NCBI GenBank assembly: GCA_938091985.1
Contig: CALKOE010000201.1
Coordinates: 1-15,123 of the forward strand
Origin: an uncultured Acidimicrobiales bacterium
Lineage (GTDB): Bacteria; Actinomycetota; Acidimicrobiia; Acidimicrobiales; Aldehydirespiratoraceae
Direction of reading: 5' to 3'
Length of the DNA: 15,123 bases
Position 1 is the first letter of the stretch, and each line of letters opens with the position of its first letter. The notes beneath the pieces are model-generated. The model did no database searches and was not told the DNA's origin. It was given only the letters and a program-made list of their open reading frames with translations. Shown here in pieces: positions 3,335-11,277 of the stretch. A program made the position numbers and the translations under genes.

Positions 3335-4963
3335 ATGAGCGACCCGAAAGACGACTGGCAGGCCGACTACGACGAGGCCCGCCTGCGCGACGTTCCGTTC
3401 GAGACGATGTCGGGCGTGCCTCTCGACGCGGTCTACGGCGAAGCCCCCTACCCCGGGCAATACCCCTACACCCGAGGACTCCACGCCGCCGGCTACAGGT
3501 CTCGACTCTGGACGATGCGCATGTTCGCCGGTTTCGGCACCGCCGAAGACACCAACGCGCGGTTCAAGGAACTCCTCCGCGCCGGCGGAACCGGCCTCTC
3601 CACCGCATTCGACATGCCGACCCTGATGGGCCGCGACTCCGATTCGCCCTGGGCGCTCGGTGAAGTGGGTCGAGCGGGCGTTGCGGTCGACACGCTGGCC
3701 GACATGGAAGATCTGTTCGCCGACATCGACCTCAGCACCGTGTCGACCTCGATGACGATCAACGGACCCGCCGCATCGCTGATGGCCATGTATGTCGCCG
3801 TCGGCGAGAAGACCGGCGTGCCCCGTGCCGACCTCGCCGGCACGATTCAGAACGACATTCTGAAGGAATACCAGGCGCAGAAGGAATACATCTACCCGCC
3901 TCGCCCGAGCATGCGCATCGTCACCGACATGGTGAAGTTCACGACCGCCGAGATGCCGAAGTGGCATCCCATTTCGATCTCCGGGTACCACATTCGCGAA
4001 GCTGGCTCGACAGCGGCACAAGAGCTCGCGTTCACCCTCGCCAACGGGTTCGCGTATGTCGAAGCCGCCATCGCCGCAGGCGAAGACATCAACGAATTCG
4101 GCCGCCGGCTCTCCTTCTTCTTCAACAGTCATCTCGACTTCTTCGAGGAGATCGGCAAGTTCCGTGCAGCCCGACGAATCTGGGCCCGCTGGATGAAGGA
4201 GCGCTATGGCGCCACCGACGAGCGCGCGATGATGTGCCGGTTCCACACCCAGACCGCCGGGGTGTCGCTCACCGCAAGCCAGCCCGAGATCAACATCGCC
4301 CGAGTCGCCACGCAGGCTCTCGCCGCGGCACTCGGCGGAACTCAGTCGCTGCACACCGACAGCTTCGACGAGGCACTCGCACTACCGACCGAGAAGGCCG
4401 CTCGCATTGCCCTGCGCACCCAACAGATCGTGGCCCACGAGACGGGCGTGACCAACGTGGTCGACCCCCTCGCCGGGGCACCATTCGTCGAATGGATGAC
4501 CGACGAAATGGAACGCCAAGCCGAAGAGGTGTTCGCTCATCTCGACGAGCTCGGCAACGGTTCGATTCTCGAAGGCGTCTACGCCGGGATCGACAACGGC
4601 TACTTCGTCGGGGAGATCGCCGATGCGGCCTACCGTTTCGAACGCGAGGTCAACGCCGACCGCCGGATCATCGTCGGCGTCAACGCCTTCACCGATGGCG
4701 ACGAAGACACCGTGCCCAATCTGCTGCGCGTCGACCACTCCACCGAGGAGTACCAGCGCAAGCGACTCGACGCCGTCAAGAAGGACCGGAACCAGGAATC
4801 GGTGACCGCAGCGCTCGACCTCATCACCGCCACCGCCGAGGATTCCACGACAAATCTGATGCCTTCGATCATCGATGCCGTGAAGGTCTACGCCACTGAA
4901 GAGGAGATCGCGATGGCAATGGAAAAGGTCTTCGGGACCTACGTCGAAACGGCGATCGTGTGA
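3335..4963 (+). CDS. B12-dependent acyl-CoA mutase large (catalytic) subunit, isobutyryl-CoA mutase type
   Basis: A 542-residue TIM-barrel subunit of the methylmalonyl-CoA mutase family without a fused B12 domain; that domain is the next gene. The N-terminal pattern (WQADYDEARLRD, TMSGVPLDAVYG, YPYTRG) resembles IcmA of Streptomyces. By alignment in memory to Propionibacterium MutB (offset 25), the substrate-defining Tyr89 is Phe64 and Arg207 is Gln182. This Phe/Gln pair marks isobutyryl-CoA/butyryl-CoA mutases rather than methylmalonyl-CoA mutase. Ala91, where 2-hydroxyisobutyryl-CoA mutase has Asp117, argues against that activity. CoA-contact Arg57 and Arg62 and catalytic His219 are kept. 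Unusual positions are His50 for Tyr75, Ala52 for Thr77 and Met63 for Gln88. It would carry out a reversible radical carbon-skeleton rearrangement in the cytosol. It is first gene of an overlapping operon; its TGA shares bases with the GTG of the next gene. Confidence 0.9.
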   Translation: MSDPKDDWQADYDEARLRDVPFETMSGVPLDAVYGEAPYPGQYPYTRGLHAAGYRSRLWTMRMFAGFGTAEDTNARFKELLRAGGTGLSTAFDMPTLMGRDSDSPWALGEVGRAGVAVDTLADMEDLFADIDLSTVSTSMTINGPAASLMAMYVAVGEKTGVPRADLAGTIQNDILKEYQAQKEYIYPPRPSMRIVTDMVKFTTAEMPKWHPISISGYHIREAGSTAAQELAFTLANGFAYVEAAIAAGEDINEFGRRLSFFFNSHLDFFEEIGKFRAARRIWARWMKERYGATDERAMMCRFHTQTAGVSLTASQPEINIARVATQALAAALGGTQSLHTDSFDEALALPTEKAARIALRTQQIVAHETGVTNVVDPLAGAPFVEWMTDEMERQAEEVFAHLDELGNGSILEGVYAGIDNGYFVGEIADAAYRFEREVNADRRIIVGVNAFTDGDEDTVPNLLRVDHSTEEYQRKRLDAVKKDRNQESVTAALDLITATAEDSTTNLMPSIIDAVKVYATEEEIAMAMEKVFGTYVETAIV

Positions 4964-5385
4964 GCGACACGACAACGCCGTCCGGCGGGGAGGACACCAC
5001 AACACGAGTCGTGCTGGCCAAGCTCGGCCTCGACGGTCACGATCGTGGCATCAAGGTGGTTGCCCGGATGCTTCGCGACGCCGGCATGGAAGTGATCTAC
5101 CTCGGCCTGCGCCAAACCACCGACAGCATCGTCGCGGCAGTCGAGCAGGAAGACGCCGATGCGATCGGCCTCTCGATGCACAACGCCGGCCACCTCACCC
5201 TCGGCCCTGCAATGTTGGCCGCCCTCGACGCGGCCGACCTCGACGTGCCGTTGATCATCGGCGGCATCGTCCCCGCCCCCGACCTCCCAATCCTGACCGA
5301 AGCCGGCGTCGCCGCCGTGCTCGGCCCCGGTGCATCCGCCGATGAGGTCGTGCGCACCGTTCGCCGCGTGGTCCACGGCGAGTGA
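4960..5385 (+). CDS. Cobalamin-binding small subunit of the acyl-CoA mutase
   Basis: A 141-residue Rossmann-like B12-binding protein, the size of stand-alone IcmB/HcmB subunits. The signature DxHxxG is DGHDRG at 25-30, with His27 as the lower axial ligand of cobalt. The GG motif is in LIIGGIVP (98-105). The SxL motif that lines the nucleotide-tail pocket reads Ser72-Met73-His74, so the usual Leu is His. It should pair with the large subunit to form the complete mutase. The start is GTG 4960, overlapping the upstream TGA by 4 nt (GTGA). It ends in another GTGA overlap with meaB. Both overlaps suggest translational coupling and matched expression of the three proteins. Confidence 0.9.
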   Translation: MSDTTTPSGGEDTTTRVVLAKLGLDGHDRGIKVVARMLRDAGMEVIYLGLRQTTDSIVAAVEQEDADAIGLSMHNAGHLTLGPAMLAALDAADLDVPLIIGGIVPAPDLPILTEAGVAAVLGPGASADEVVRTVRRVVHGE

Positions 5386-6353
5386 GCCGACCTGATCTCG
5401 CGGCGGCAGAACTGGTCGAGCGCGCCACGAACGGCGACCGCCGCTCCGTCGGGCGGCTGCTGAGTCTGGTCGAACGGGGCGGCGCCGGCGCCGAAGAAAT
5501 CGCCGAGCTCACCCATCTCGAGAGTCACTCGTCTCATGTCATCGGCATCACCGGAGCCCCCGGTGCGGGTAAGTCGACGATGGTGGCGAAGCTCGTTGCC
5601 GCGTGCACCGCAGCCGGACAACGCCCAGCGGTGCTCGCCGTCGACCCATCGTCGCCGCTCACCGGTGGCGCCATCCTGGGCGATCGTGTGCGCATGGCGG
5701 AGGTCGACACCACTGCGTTTATTCGTTCGGTCGCCACGCGTGGCCATGCCGGTGGGCTCGCACTGGCAATACCCGGCGGTGCGCGGGTGCTCGCCGCTGC
5801 CGGATTCGATCCGGTGATCATCGAGACCGTCGGCGTGGGCCAAGTGGAGGTCGATGTCACTGCCGCAGCCGACACGACGGTGGTGGTCGTCACCCCCGGA
5901 ATGGGTGACGCGGTGCAAGCCAACAAGGCCGGTCTCCTCGAAGTGGCCGACATCTTCGTCGTGAACAAAGCGGACCGACCCGGTGCCGGCGACGCCCGTC
6001 GAGATCTCGAACTCATGCTCGAGTTGAGCCACGTCACCGGCCAGGAAGACGAGTCCTATCGACCGCCGATCGTGATGGTGAACTCGCTCGATGGCGACGG
6101 CATCGCCGAGGTCTACGACCTCATCCACACCCATCAGGATCATCTCGTCACTTCCGGGACCCTCCACGATCGTCGTTGTCGTCGCACCCGATTCGAGCTC
6201 GCGAGTCGCGCTGGGCTGCGGTTCGAACGTGTGCTCACATCCGCGCTCGACACGCCAGCGGTCGCCGCAGTGATCGACGACGTCGCGGCCGGAAGAGCCA
6301 CACCGGCGAGCGGACTCGCCGCACTCACAGCAGCTCTCGACGCACCTCTCTAA
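5382..6353 (+). CDS. meaB: MeaB-type G-protein chaperone of the acyl-CoA mutase
   Basis: A 323-residue SIMIBI-class GTPase of the MeaB/ArgK family, normal length. It has an N-terminal helical segment (1-50), Walker A GAPGAGKST (58-66), DPSSP (88-92), GDRVRM (100-105), ETVGVGQVE (148-156) and the guanine-specificity NKAD (195-198). A C-terminal dimerisation arm follows. MeaB proteins use GTP to gate adenosylcobalamin loading into the mutase and to protect or clear inactivated cofactor. Its place in the same overlapping operon as both subunits shows which mutase it serves. The start is GTG 5382 in a 4-nt GTGA overlap. It ends in TAA 10 nt before the second P450. The last 20 residues are Ala-rich and unremarkable. 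Confidence 0.93.
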   Translation: MSRPDLAAAELVERATNGDRRSVGRLLSLVERGGAGAEEIAELTHLESHSSHVIGITGAPGAGKSTMVAKLVAACTAAGQRPAVLAVDPSSPLTGGAILGDRVRMAEVDTTAFIRSVATRGHAGGLALAIPGGARVLAAAGFDPVIIETVGVGQVEVDVTAAADTTVVVVTPGMGDAVQANKAGLLEVADIFVVNKADRPGAGDARRDLELMLELSHVTGQEDESYRPPIVMVNSLDGDGIAEVYDLIHTHQDHLVTSGTLHDRRCRRTRFELASRAGLRFERVLTSALDTPAVAAVIDDVAAGRATPASGLAALTAALDAPL

Positions 6354-7551: not shown

Positions 7552-7561
7552 TCAGGCTCTC
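7539..7561. terminator. Candidate bidirectional hairpin at convergent gene ends
   Basis: A perfect 7-bp inverted repeat, GAGAGCC (7539-7545) and GGCTCTC (7555-7561), encloses a 9-nt loop. It spans the stop codons of P450 B and the XRE regulator, which abut with no spacer (7551/7552). A perfect 12-bp palindrome, GCCTGATCAGGC (7546-7557), offers an alternative fold. There is no T-tract, so intrinsic termination is uncertain. Confidence 0.3.
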
Positions 7562-8346
7562 GCGAATCGCTCGACAGTCGCAGTGTCAGCGGCGGGCGTG
7601 TAGATCACGGCTGCCCATCCCGGATGATCAGGCAGCGAGAGACGGTGATGATCAAAGACCAGTTCCCCTTGCACCGGATGAACGAAGCGCCGCTGCTGTG
7701 AGGTGAAGACCGCCACGTCGTGGCGTCCCCACGCGTCGGCGAACTCGGGGTGAGCGCGTAGTTCGTCGACCAGAGCGGTTGCTTCGTCGCTCGGGTAGTG
7801 ACTCACGTGGAGTCGGAACTGCCGCGTGAGCCGCTCAATCTCGTCCGTCCAGTCAGTCATGAACGTGCGCAACTCGGGTGTCTCGAGCGTGAGGCGAAGC
7901 AGATTGGGGCGCTCGACACGATCGAGTACAGGGAACAGTCGTGCCTCGGCGCGGTTCCAACAAACCACGTTCCACGCGTGATCCAGGACGTAGGCAGGAT
8001 TCGGTTCGAGGCCCTCGACAAGCGTGCGTTGGGACGAATCTGCGATCTGCCCCGCGATGGCAGCCGCCGGCGGGTGCACGTCGGCCAACCCGAACAAGTG
8101 CGACCGTTCGGCCGGCGAAAGCCGCAAGGCGTCGGCGAGACCGGAGAGCACGTCGGCGGACACTCGATTGGCTCGCCCCTGCTCCAGACGCGTCAGCCAC
8201 GACACGCCGATGTTGGCCAGCACCGCGACTTCCTCGCGGCGAAGACCCGCCGTGCGGCGCCCGGTCGAGGAGGGCAGACCCACATCGCCGGGGCGAAGCC
8301 GCGCTCGCCGAGTGCGCAGGAAGTCGCCGAGTTCACCCGATTTCAC
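7552..8346 (-). CDS. XRE-family regulator with MmyB-like ligand-binding domain
   Basis: A 264-residue protein. An N-terminal XRE helix-turn-helix covers about 5-88, with TAGLRREEVAVLANIGVSW then LTRLEQGR as the HTH core. A PAS-like MmyB-type ligand-binding domain follows at about 105-260, with the hallmark phrases AYVLDHAWNVVCWNRAE, RLTRQFRLHVSHYPSD, and the C-terminal HHRLSLPDHPGW. In actinobacteria these proteins usually sit divergent from the gene they control and sense a hydrophobic small molecule. Here the divergent target is the aminotransferase/CMD operon. The start is GTG 8346, supported by TAGGTT 6 nt upstream (leaderless pattern). The 14-bp palindrome just upstream of that box is the likely operator. 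Confidence 0.93.
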   Translation of the reverse strand: MKSGELGDFLRTRRARLRPGDVGLPSSTGRRTAGLRREEVAVLANIGVSWLTRLEQGRANRVSADVLSGLADALRLSPAERSHLFGLADVHPPAAAIAGQIADSSQRTLVEGLEPNPAYVLDHAWNVVCWNRAEARLFPVLDRVERPNLLRLTLETPELRTFMTDWTDEIERLTRQFRLHVSHYPSDEATALVDELRAHPEFADAWGRHDVAVFTSQQRRFVHPVQGELVFDHHRLSLPDHPGWAAVIYTPAADTATVERFARA

Positions 8347-8423: not shown

Positions 8424-9561
8424 ATGACCATGGCCCACGACCCGCTCCTGAGCCAACGAGCGCGCCACGCAACCACATCAGCCATCAGAGATCTGCTCGA
8501 ACACGCCCAACGACCCGGAATGATCAGCCTGGCGGGTGGGCTTCCCGACCCCGCGCTCTTCCCGGTCGACCATCTCGCCTCCATCGCCGATCAGGAGATC
8601 CGCGCCAACAGTGGCCACGTCCTGCAATACGGCCTGACCGCCGGCGACCGACATCGACCATGTCGTCGTCACGACCGGATCCCAGCAAGCACTGCAACTG
8701 CTCTCGGCGGTGGTTCTCGATCCCGGCGACACCGTGGTGGTCGCCGAACCCGAGTATCTCGGCGCGATGCAGGCATTTCACAACGCCGGCGCCGAGCTCA
8801 CCGGCATACCAATCGACCACGGTGGCATCGATCTCGACCAGCTCGAAAATGCACTCGCTGCCGGACTGCGCCCGAAGATGGTCTACCTGGTTCCCCATTT
8901 CCACAATCCGTCGGGATCAACGCTCTCGTCGTCGCGGCTCGAACGCCTCTTCGCTCTGGCCTCGCACCACGGGTTTCTCGTCGTGCTCGACGACCCTTAC
9001 CGCGAGCTCACCGCCGACGGAGAGACGCCCGTTGAGCCCGATGCTCATCCGATGGCGGTGCACCTTCGCAGTACGTCGAAGATTCTTGCACCGGGACTCC
9101 GAGTCGGTTGGTTGATCGGTCCGCGTTGGCTCACCATCGCCATAGAGCGGGCGAAGCAGTCAGCCGATCTCCACACCAGCACGGCCTCGCAGGCGATCGC
9201 TCGACGAGCACTCGCCGCCGATTGGTTCCCGACCCACCTCGCCACGCTTCGCAGCGCCACGCGAACGAAGCGCGATGCCCTTTGTGATGCGCTCGACGCG
9301 ACGCTGGGCGAGCGAATCTCCTTCACTCGCCCCGGCGGCGGCATGTTCGTGTGGGCCACGCTCTCAGGGGTCGAGTCGACCGACGTCCTGCTCACGCGGG
9401 CGCTCGATCGTGGGGTGGCCTTCGTGCCGGGCTCAGCATTTGCCGTCACCCACGACCTGTCGTCATGCCTTCGCCTGAGCTGGGCAACCGCAAACACCGA
9501 CGAACTCATCGATGCCGTGAGTCGATTGGCTCGCTCGGTCGAAATAGGGTCGAAGAGATGA
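8424..9561 (+). pseudogene. PLP-dependent aminotransferase (MocR/2-aminoadipate type), disrupted by internal deletion and frameshift
   Basis: The frame from ATG 8424 reads as the N-terminus of a fold-type I aminotransferase (RDLLEHAQRPGMISLAGGLPDPALFP, then VLQYGLTAG). It loses homology after about 8645. The family sequence resumes in another frame at about 8647-8650 with DIDHVVVTTGSQQALQLL and runs to 9561. The second part has NPSG in PHFHNPSG, DDPY, and the PLP-lysine motif STSKILAPGLRVG, so the catalytic core was complete. Homologues have roughly twenty more residues between YGLTAG and the VVTTGSQQ strand, so a short segment not divisible by three is missing; a TGA at 8635 blocks the second frame upstream. 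It may be a true pseudogene or an assembly error. The family transfers amino groups of aliphatic or aromatic amino acids. Its TGA overlaps the next ATG, so it was an operon leader. Confidence 0.85.
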
Positions 9562-9929
9562 CCTTCAGCGCTGAGCTCGCTCCCAACGTCGCCGACGCGT
9601 TCAGTCACCTCCTCGACGGGGTGTGGGACGGACGTGTCGATACAGGGGTGCTGGAGCGCTGCCGCCAGCGCGTCGGCGAACTCGTGGGAGCGCCACCCGA
9701 CGCTGGCCGACACCCGAGTGAACCAATCCCCGCAACCGACAGCGCCGTGGTGGACGCGTGTCTGGCCTTCACGGAAGTCTGGGTGATCGACCCCCACGCG
9801 ATGACCGATGAACTCGCTGCGTCCGTTCGATTGCATCTGAGCGACGCAGAAGCCGCAGCATTCACGATCGGTCTGGCCACCATCGAGGCCCAGGCGCGAG
9901 CCGCAGTGGCATGGGGAGCGTTCGAATGA
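9558..9929 (+). CDS. Small CMD/AhpD-like protein without a CxxC motif
   Basis: A 123-residue mostly helical protein. LERCRQRVGELVG (32-44) and DSAVVDACLAFTEVWVID (61-78), followed by a TDE..A.VR.HLSDAEAAAF segment, resemble a group of short carboxymuconolactone-decarboxylase-like proteins common in actinobacteria. In that group the first motif is usually close to ELCRLRVAQLLG. The only cysteines are Cys35 and Cys68, far apart, so it cannot carry out the CxxC chemistry of AhpD. A structural or substrate-binding partner of the next protein is an inference from context. ATG 9558 overlaps the upstream TGA (ATGA), and its own TGA overlaps the next ATG (ATGA). The assignment is by recalled pattern, not by search. 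Confidence 0.65.
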   Translation: MTFSAELAPNVADAFSHLLDGVWDGRVDTGVLERCRQRVGELVGAPPDAGRHPSEPIPATDSAVVDACLAFTEVWVIDPHAMTDELAASVRLHLSDAEAAAFTIGLATIEAQARAAVAWGAFE

Positions 9930-10411
9930 GATTCCCACCGCCAGCTGACTCGATGAACTTCTTCGAACACGACGCCGAACTCAATGCCCGCTTCGACCGT
10001 TTCTACGGAGAACTCTGGCAACGGGGAACAGTCGACGAGGCCACGAAAGAGGTCGGACGGCTCCGCAACGCCCGCATCACCGACTGCGGCATTTGACGCA
10101 ACCTCCGCTTCGCAGGTGCGCAGCAGCAAGGACTCACCGAGGAACGCGTGGACGAAATCGACGGCGATGTCGCCGACACCACGCTGCCGAATCGTTGGAA
10201 AGCGGCGGTCGAGTGGACCGACGTGGTGATCGGCGCCACGTCAGCCACCTCGTCACCTTCTACTCCAACAACCAATGACAGTCTTACGCGCGCTGAGCGC
10301 GCGGAGCTGACACTCACCGTCGCTGTAGCCCAGGGCTTCTCCAAGGCTGCCATCGCCTGGGGGCCGGCGCCTGACCTGCCAACAATGGTGATTCCAACAC
10401 CTGGGAGCTGA
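9926..10411 (+). CDS. CMD/AhpD-like redox protein with in-frame TGA in its CxxC motif: candidate selenoprotein (CxxU)
   Basis: Starting at ATG 9926 (ATGA overlap with the gene before), the frame reads MRFPPPADSMNFFEHDAELN, then DEATKEVGRLRNARITDCGI, then TGA at 10094-10096. It continues in the same frame with RNLRFAGAQQQGLTEERVDE and LPNRWKAAVEWTDVVIG to TGA 10409-10411. Homologues I recall read DCGFCRN(L/V)RFAGA at this point, so the TGA replaces the second Cys of the redox motif. Read through, the product is 161 residues with Cys54 and Sec57. AhpD-type CMD proteins reduce peroxides or disulfides through CxxC. A SECIS-like hairpin follows at once. Residues 104-118 are a Ser/Thr/Pro-rich linker, and GFSKAAIAWG near the end is family-like. 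Alternative: a Cys TGC-to-TGA nonsense mutation, leaving a 56-residue stub and an orphan ORF from ATG 10148. Confidence 0.65.
10097..10124 (+). promoter_or_regulatory. Candidate bacterial SECIS element just 3' of the in-frame TGA
   Basis: GCU (10107-10109) pairs with AGC (10122-10124), and CGC (10111-10113) with GCG (10118-10120). Between these two helices U10110 faces C10121 unpaired. The apical loop is AGGU (10114-10117). Loop distance from the TGA is 17 nt, and the GGU lies 18 nt after it. As I recall the E. coli fdhF element, it also has two 3-bp helices separated by an unpaired U and GCAGGU at this same spacing. SelB recognises that U and the loop G/U. A competing fold (10097-10104 with 10114-10120, one bulged A) is possible. 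Confidence 0.55.
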
Positions 10412-10488: not shown

Positions 10489-11277
10489 ATGGCTCAGCGT
10501 CCGCACCCTCTCCTCGCACTTCTCGAGGTCCGCGCCGCGCCGGAGCTCGGGTTTTTTGCAGCTACCGCACCCGCCATGGCGGCGCTCCTCCCTCGGGCCA
10601 ACGTCGATCGTCACGTCCTCGTGCTTCCGGGCTTCATGGCCGGCGACTCGAGCACTGCTCCGCTGAGAAGGTTGCTCGGCACGCTCGGCTATCAAACCCA
10701 CGGTTGGGGTCTCGGCCGCAATATCGGACCGACGGCCGAAATCGTCGAAGGCCTCGTGCACCTCATCGAACGACTCGACCGAGAGAAGGGTCCGATCGAT
10801 GTCATCGGCTGGTCGCTCGGTGGCCTGTTCGCCCGAGAAATCGCCCGCTTGGCTCCCGCCACCGTGCGCCAGGTGATCACTCTGGGGAGTCCGTTCCAGA
10901 CAACCGGCCCCGACGAGTCCAACGCCAGCGCCGCGTTCACCGCGCTGCGCTCGCGCCACAGCGACGACATCATGATCCCCCGCATTCCCAGTTGGGCTCG
11001 CGAACCAATGGAAGTGCCGACGACGTCGGTCTACACAAAGGGCGACGGAGTCGTCAGCTGGCACCAGTGCCTCAATCGTGATCTTCCCGAGACCGAAAAC
11101 GTCGAGGTCTACGGAAGCCACTGCGGCCTCGGCCACAATCCTGCAGCCACGTTCGTGATCGCCGACCGGCTCGCGCAGGCGAACGATGACTGGACCCCGT
11201 TCCGTCCGCCACGGCCGATGCGCAGCTTCTTCCCCAACGCCGACGTGCTCGACACCGACCGCGTCCGCGCCGCCTGA
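10489..11277 (+). CDS. Alpha/beta hydrolase (lipase/esterase-like)
   Basis: A 262-residue alpha/beta-fold hydrolase. The oxyanion-region motif LPGFMAG is at 46-52, and the nucleophile elbow GWSLGG at 107-112 makes Ser109 the catalytic serine. GDGVVSW at 185-191 supplies the probable acid Asp186, and GSHCGLGHN at 209-217 the His (His211 or His216). The strand before the elbow (DVIGWSLGGLFAREIA) and the following TLGSPF are typical of lipase-like and PGAP1-like esterases. I see no signal peptide, so it is probably cytoplasmic; the substrate is unknown. ATG 10489 has no clear Shine-Dalgarno site, but it follows the Sec-candidate gene by 77 nt, so it may have its own promoter. Downstream it converges on the coiled-coil gene across a hairpin. 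Confidence 0.85.
   Translation: MAQRPHPLLALLEVRAAPELGFFAATAPAMAALLPRANVDRHVLVLPGFMAGDSSTAPLRRLLGTLGYQTHGWGLGRNIGPTAEIVEGLVHLIERLDREKGPIDVIGWSLGGLFAREIARLAPATVRQVITLGSPFQTTGPDESNASAAFTALRSRHSDDIMIPRIPSWAREPMEVPTTSVYTKGDGVVSWHQCLNRDLPETENVEVYGSHCGLGHNPAATFVIADRLAQANDDWTPFRPPRPMRSFFPNADVLDTDRVRAA

Follow-up and report, generated by a model that had tools for sequence, protein, structure and literature searches.

A probable CMD/AhpD-fold selenoprotein of Acidimicrobiales and the CxxC-less CMD paralogue encoded next to it

The known CMD/AhpD proteins are homo-oligomers. The active site of AhpD, as in M. tuberculosis AhpD, has the arrangement Glu-x11-Cys-x2-Cys-x3-His, and the attacking residue is the second Cys. 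CMD-domain or AhpD-like selenoproteins with a CxxU motif were reported from the Sargasso Sea in 2005 (PMC1088965) and from GOS in 2008 (PMC2398784), so the precedent in metagenome surveys that a first-pass annotation of the present DNA had claimed does exist. Such proteins also appear in catalogues of 2022 and 2026 (PMC9312934, PMC13188914), and Actinobacteria were counted among the selenoprotein-rich phyla in 2006 (PMC1794560). These statements, and the comparisons with published selenoproteins below, follow the accessible parts of those papers.

The window analysed in this study is a stretch of 15,123 nucleotides from an uncultured Acidimicrobiales bacterium (contig CALKOE010000201.1). Like the published CxxU selenoproteins of the CMD/AhpD type, as the accessible descriptions present them, the product of the gene CMD2 in this window has the PF02627 domain, a predicted Sec as the second residue of CxxU, a putative bacterial SECIS element downstream and Cys homologues. 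Unlike them, it has Arg in place of the His of the AhpD motif, and it has a CMD partner gene without CxxC, which is not mentioned in those descriptions. The CMD2 subfamily may already be among the published CxxU selenoproteins, from which it is set apart here by their descriptions. Thus, the kind of selenoprotein has been known since 2005, the CMD2 subfamily has Arg for the AhpD His, and what is new here is the conserved CxxC-less CMD paralogue upstream, not a regulator.

PA0269 (2ijc, 2o4d, 7xw1) and Atu0492 (2gmy) resemble CMD2 in profile comparisons (E 6.7e-10 to 3e-8) and in fold. The Glu-x11-CxxC of PA0269 aligns with E42, C54 and position 57 of CMD2. In contrast to the probable Sec of CMD2, PA0269 and Atu0492 have Cys; their identity in the Foldseek rows is 14-22%, and PA0269 has His at the place of R61. 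The NCBIfam models NF053654, NF041047, NF041238, NF041537, TIGR01926 and NF045649 are matched weakly by CMD2 relatives and by related CMD/AhpD selenoprotein candidates. Among these six, the best score of protein P0001 is 17.0 bits (NF045649, E 0.0023), followed by 15.3 bits for NF041047 and 14.9 bits for NF053654, all below the cut-off; NF041238, NF041537 and TIGR01926 are not among its matches listed. The same protein scores 13.4 bits with TIGR00778 (ahpD; cut-off 27.8), TIGR00777 is not among its matches listed, and no NCBIfam cut-off is reached. The best score of L086, 29.6 bits with NF053654, is also below the cut-off.

The features of the locus are as follows.

7552..8346, minus strand: HTH + MLTR_LBD regulator, divergent; a neighbour in the genus only
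8430..9561, plus strand: PLP aminotransferase/MocR-like gene, frame-broken by a 44-nt gap; a neighbour in the genus only
9558..9929, plus strand: CMD1, a CMD paralogue without CxxC and probable non-catalytic partner subunit; its stop overlaps the CMD2 start (ATGA)
9926..10411, plus strand: CMD2-Sec, a probable CMD/AhpD-fold selenoprotein of 161 residues, Sec at 57, E42-x11-C54-x2-U57-x3-R61
10094..10096, plus strand: in-frame TGA (UGA), codon 57, probably read as selenocysteine by comparison of the TGA/Cys column
10107..10124, plus strand: putative SECIS hairpin (5' arm 10107-10113, AGGU loop 10114-10117, 3' arm 10118-10124)
10489..11277, plus strand: alpha/beta hydrolase; adjacent within the genus alone, and retained in the genus genome G006

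The CMD2 frame and its relatives

The frame 9926-10411 is interrupted solely by the TGA at 10094-10096, with 56 codons before it and 104 after it. As the first-pass annotation had stated, the latter part is open to the gene's own stop, which is also TGA (in 6/6 genus species). Plain ORF calling on the window gave a stub of 61 aa that starts at the ATG of 9911 (56 codons if counted from 9926), and a second ORF of 87 aa starting at 10148, reproducing the split that had been predicted for standard gene calling. The CMD2-Sec subfamily, which is well supported and lies mostly in Acidimicrobiia, is truncated by plain ORF calling. PF02627 (CMD) matches residues 18-98 and spans the TGA (entered as Cys), with E = 2.1e-8 and a score of 34.5 bits, above the curated cut-off of 23. 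The claimed family motif does continue across the TGA; its proposed wording DCGFCRN has to be replaced, since the subfamily motif is roughly (G/D)CxICxNLRFxGA.

On comparative grounds, I consider CMD2 to be a bacterial selenoprotein with a probability of about 0.96. The support consists of the exchange of TGA and Cys, the constraint on both sides of the TGA, a conserved hairpin and the Sec machinery of the genus; the gene pairing is likewise shown, and that Sec is actually incorporated into CMD2 is what I infer. The CMD2 gene was found in 6 of the 7 genus genomes searched, with TGA at codon 57 in all six; the five congener homologues are 70-79% identical, and the homologue search gave no CMD2 match in the seventh genome (G006). 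A scan of a contig collection yielded 25 CMD2 loci, whose codon 57 is TGA in 18 and TGC/TGT in 7. Since three of the 18 TGA loci repeat genus genomes, there are 15 further Sec genes, 13 of them in records titled Acidimicrobiia, Acidimicrobiales or Actinomycetota; the exceptions are L086 (marine group bacterium Sva0996) and L089. Among protein homologues, the codon-57 column is Cys in 120/120 listed (of 175 found), which is no frequency because Sec forms cut at the TGA are not expected in a protein database. Thus, the claim that a single TGA falls on the second Cys of CxxC agrees both with these homologues and with the TGA of the close relatives. E42, C54 and R61 are each kept in the same 120 listed homologues. 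An in-frame UGA aligned with the Cys of homologues, with the frame conserved beyond it, is a criterion for selenoproteins, and this is the pattern found in CMD2.

In a 396-genome sample of the phylum, 17 genomes had a CMD2 match at 1e-15, and a TGA-holding match was present in G000 and G172 only; therefore, the gene is rare. Thirteen weak matches (L025-L037) were left out as orthologues, being other CMD/AhpD-like proteins by translation. The distant Sec homologue L107 was excluded from the count of hairpins in 21 genes and from the Sec-origin trees because of its distance. Of the database homologues (120 listed), 25 entered the tree and 45 entered alignment A1, while the Cys-column count uses all 120. 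The Sec-origin trees need 2-3 Sec/Cys changes, and one Sec clade appears in 0% of 200 bootstrap trees. The AU test did not reject a single Sec clade (p 0.37; p 0.30 without the SECIS columns), so one origin and several origins of Sec are both left standing.

Other CMD/AhpD-like frames of the same order (L026, L028, L030, L034, L035, L126 and L134) have an in-frame TGA in CxxU, with downstream hairpins shown for all of these except L134. The order seems to be rich in such AhpD-like selenoprotein candidates. SelA and SelB were reported in most sponge symbiont bins by a paper that also lists the Sva0996 bin holding L086, and no named selenoprotein was seen in its accessible part (PMC5649159). A mostly open-access literature search on selenoproteins of Acidimicrobiia/Acidimicrobiales gave nothing further on point in the accessible texts (PMC13083753 is unrelated), and a similar search found no literature on Actinomycetota together with SECIS.

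The hairpin, the Sec machinery and the constraint around the UGA

In the bacterial SECIS model, as given in the accessible part of PMC13188914, the apical loop has 3-9 nt with a G in its first two positions and lies 16-37 nt from the UGA. An upper stem of at least 4 contiguous base pairs serves there as a prediction rule, and some bacterial SECIS elements depart from the prediction model. Each of the 21 Sec genes, 6 from the genus and 15 from elsewhere, can form a hairpin at +11 to +28 after the UGA, with an AGGU loop 17 nt from the UGA as the loop and spacing rule has it; in every one, this hairpin has the lowest energy among the folds of the 36 nt that follow the UGA. Its sequence in most Sec genes is GCUUCGC-AGGU-GCGAAGC. 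The 15 non-genus genes form 7/7 pairs, contiguously. The 6 genus genes form 6/7, arranged as 3 pairs, a U.C mismatch (10110/10121 in the window) and 3 pairs, and the mismatch accompanies the replacement of Lys by Gln. One pair is altered on both sides in L095 (C-G to U-A), L087 and L105 have one G-U each, and L107 has the same stem around GGUC. The seven Cys homologues form 2-4 of the 7 pairs, and at their terminal TGA the six genus genes form 1-4 of 7 such pairs. GGT stands at codon 64, which lies in the loop, in 21/21 Sec genes and 0/7 Cys genes (Fisher p = 8e-7, uncorrected for kinship), the latter having six other Gly codons and one Thr. Near copies account for 11 of the 21 Sec genes, there are 11 distinct 36-mers, and the tests ignore kinship.

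The strict SECIS rule gives no element in 5/6 genus Sec genes and one elsewhere in G005, while it gives an element in 5/7 Cys genes. The folding energy of the window is not unusual against shuffles (z values of 0.58, 0.80 and 0.09 in the three stretches folded), and two of these three stretches fold best into a different, competing hairpin. Hairpin energy alone was therefore rejected as evidence, the window being no better than shuffles. Because hairpins that fit the rule occur in 5/7 Cys genes and the window energy is unremarkable, the presence of a hairpin proves nothing; the evidence for SECIS is its conserved position and sequence. Thus, of the proposal of a SECIS element downstream of the TGA, the hairpin stands as a conserved element of the Sec genes, while the mismatch in the window breaks the strict model.

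The assembly of the window's own genome is 66% complete and in 507 contigs. On contig C8 it contains SelB as a run of 571 stop-free codons from position 486, where the SelB model match covers positions 2-352 of 581. SelA is in two pieces, reaching the last base of contig C110 and the first of C8, and the piece on C8 lies directly before selB. SelB is above the cut-off in 7/7 genus genomes versus 2/14 controls. A tRNA-Sec with the anticodon tca was detected by ARAGORN in 6/6 congeners; RF01852 is above its cut-off in the same six, a loose model that also hits 5/14 controls. The selD gene is above the cut-off in 5/6 congeners, with one TGA each, and the copy of G005 is cut by the contig end. The expectation of Sec genes in the genome was thus borne out for selA and selB, while selC and selD were not found in its 66%-complete assembly and are present in congeners.

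If the frame is simply open through the TGA, the codon might be read through with a standard amino acid, or TGA might be a sense codon genome-wide. This is very improbable, since CMD2's own stop is TGA in 6/6 species, position 57 is Cys in 120/120 listed homologues, SelA, SelB and tRNA-Sec exist in the genus, and the hairpin is kept in the Sec genes, whereas the 7 Cys genes do not have it. Genome-wide recoding was rejected on this evidence.

Constraint was measured as pN/pS pooled over 15 pairs of the six genus species. It is 0.183 before the TGA and 0.380 after it, in agreement with the expectation that sister genomes show no loss of constraint downstream; within the latter part it is 0.517 over the 40 codons next to the TGA and 0.224 over the final 45. 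Control frames over the first 30 codons gave 1.30 (+1) and 1.11 (+2). Thus, purifying selection acts on both sides of the TGA. Codons 58-68 are identical in the six species at 10 of 11 positions, whereas outside this stretch the count is 17 of 77 comparable codons (Fisher p = 1.6e-5), and the longest run of identical codons is 11 (permutation p = 3e-5). Part of the value of 0.517 may be due to a suppression of synonymous change.

A nonsense mutation or a miscalled TGC/TGT could be suspected in an assembly of 507 contigs, in which a 44-nt gap breaks the frame of the neighbouring aminotransferase gene. However, the same TGA occurs in six genus genomes and 15 more loci, purifying selection continues past it and the synonymous sites just after it are frozen; a pseudogene or sequencing error is scarcely credible and was rejected. 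A pair of genes, in which a stub of 56 residues is followed by an ORF with a start of its own, as output by a plain ORF caller, was equally rejected as scarcely credible, since the place of the first in-frame ATG/GTG/TTG beyond the TGA varies among the six species (codons 75, 75, 74, 100, 95 and 95), the segment RNLRFAGAQQQGL is invariant in them and precedes every such codon, and a single Pfam domain spans both parts.

The CMD1 partner, the other neighbours and the possible reaction

As the first-pass annotation had noticed, CMD2 overlaps the upstream gene through ATGA at its start; this four-base overlap with CMD1 is present in 6/6 genus members. CMD1 lies directly upstream of CMD2 in 25/25 loci (23 by tblastn, L102 and L105 by reading frames), at -1 to 91 nt between the CMD1 end and the CMD2 match in the 20 loci measured, and the adjacency is common to the Sec and Cys forms. 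By record titles, which may be wrong because these are metagenome bins, the loci belong to Actinomycetota, Binatota, Myxococcota and Pseudomonadota. Pfam gives no match for the CMD1 of the window, but 4/6 tested relatives score above the PF02627 cut-off. A profile comparison aligns CMD1 with CMD2 over 127 columns (probability 97.4%, E = 1e-11). No CxxC was found in any of the 17 aligned CMD1 proteins.

A regulator-linked operon, a context that the first-pass annotation had called possibly new, was considered as the meaningful setting of the gene. Regulator, aminotransferase, cytochrome P450 and hydrolase genes lie beside CMD2 in 4/4 congeners with enough flank, and the hydrolase is seen there in G005. 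These genes were seen in 0/22 loci outside the genus, some with short flanks, so this reading was rejected; the conserved neighbour of CMD2 is the CxxC-less CMD paralogue, not the regulator. The aminotransferase/MocR-like gene of the window is without 44 nt (between 8650 and 8651) that are present in G002 and G003, and its frame is broken; it is intact in the four congeners read. The gap may be a real lesion or an assembly defect. Further upstream, positions 3335-6353 of the window contain what I take to be look-alikes of a methylmalonyl-CoA-mutase-type large subunit, a B12-binding subunit and a MeaB-type GTPase, followed by a P450-like ORF, and this ORF row is syntenic in congeners.

G006 keeps the regulator, the aminotransferase and the hydrolase flanking the site. 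Neither CMD1 nor CMD2 was found in this genome; about 4.7 kb of other genes occupy the place that the pair has in its relatives. These 4.7 kb, in the region L140 (G006:C111:28000-37000), have acyltransferase-like, HAD/PlsC-like, TetR-like and hydrolase-like ORFs, named by reading. The CMD1 profile hits G006 once, weakly and on a different contig, and the hit turns out to be a CMD frame of a different type that holds a TGA. G172 has two pairs of CMD1 and a TGA-containing CMD gene. In L142 of this genome, a second type of TGA-containing CMD with a CHTU motif has a CMD1-like gene directly upstream; therefore, the pairing may extend beyond the CMD2 subfamily.

Judged from the gene arrangement and the sequences, there is about an even chance that CMD1 and CMD2 make up one enzyme, a heteromer of one catalytic and one non-catalytic subunit. 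The same even odds are given to an obligate two-subunit enzyme, in which the CxxC-less CMD1 would scaffold the Sec- or Cys-bearing CMD2 or give it contacts to substrate or coenzyme. A somewhat smaller chance, still a considerable one, belongs to the idea that the two are mere neighbours and that the selenoprotein CMD2 acts alone as a homo-oligomer, the form of the known CMD/AhpD proteins; gene order alone does not show contact between CMD1 and CMD2. Against this are the adjacency in 25/25 loci in four phyla by record titles, the two pairs of G172 and G006, in which neither gene was found. Nothing on point about a CMD protein with an inactive subunit was found in the literature, among the matches listed.

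The structure model of CMD2 (pLDDT 84) has a mostly helical CMD fold. Its best Foldseek matches are the AhpD-like Atu0492 and PA0269 (TM about 0.6, probability 1.00); no match reached E 0.001, the best E being 3.6e-3. In the alignment with PA0269, the E-x11-CxxC-x3-H residues fall on E42, C54, U57 and R61. Thus, the Glu, the first Cys and the Cys/Sec of the AhpD signature are present and the His is replaced by Arg61. Since position 61 is Arg in 120/120 listed homologues (of 175 found), CMD2 is not AhpD proper. Since the second Cys attacks in AhpD, Sec57 would sit at the nucleophile.

A possible mechanism is as follows. SelB with Sec-tRNA(Sec) would read UGA 57 as selenocysteine, directed by the AGGU-loop hairpin 11-28 nt downstream, and translation would stop at the terminal UGA, which is without such a hairpin. 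Sec57, replacing the second Cys of CxxC, would be the attacking nucleophile, Cys54 the resolving residue and Glu42 the acid/base that activates the nucleophile. In complex with CMD1, CMD2 may be a selenol-based oxidoreductase (peroxide or disulfide reduction); the best guess is a thiol/selenol oxidoreductase acting on another substrate than that of AhpD. Reductive dehalogenation, the type of reaction of Bmp8, a debrominase with the CMD fold whose structures 6ohj and 6ohi are among the Foldseek matches, could be considered instead, since selenols suit this reaction, as in deiodinases. It is unlikely, as Bmp8 ranks 32nd in the Foldseek list with E 0.85, below the AhpD-like proteins.

With the selenoprotein reading of CMD2, the natural exchange of Sec and Cys within one conserved gene pair, with SECIS visible at the codon level, would be a clean case for the gain and loss of Sec. 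If the two-subunit enzyme is true, catalytic Cys and Sec would exchange in a CMD system whose non-catalytic partner stays constant. The partner gene is also a starting point for finding the reaction of an uncharacterised CMD enzyme.
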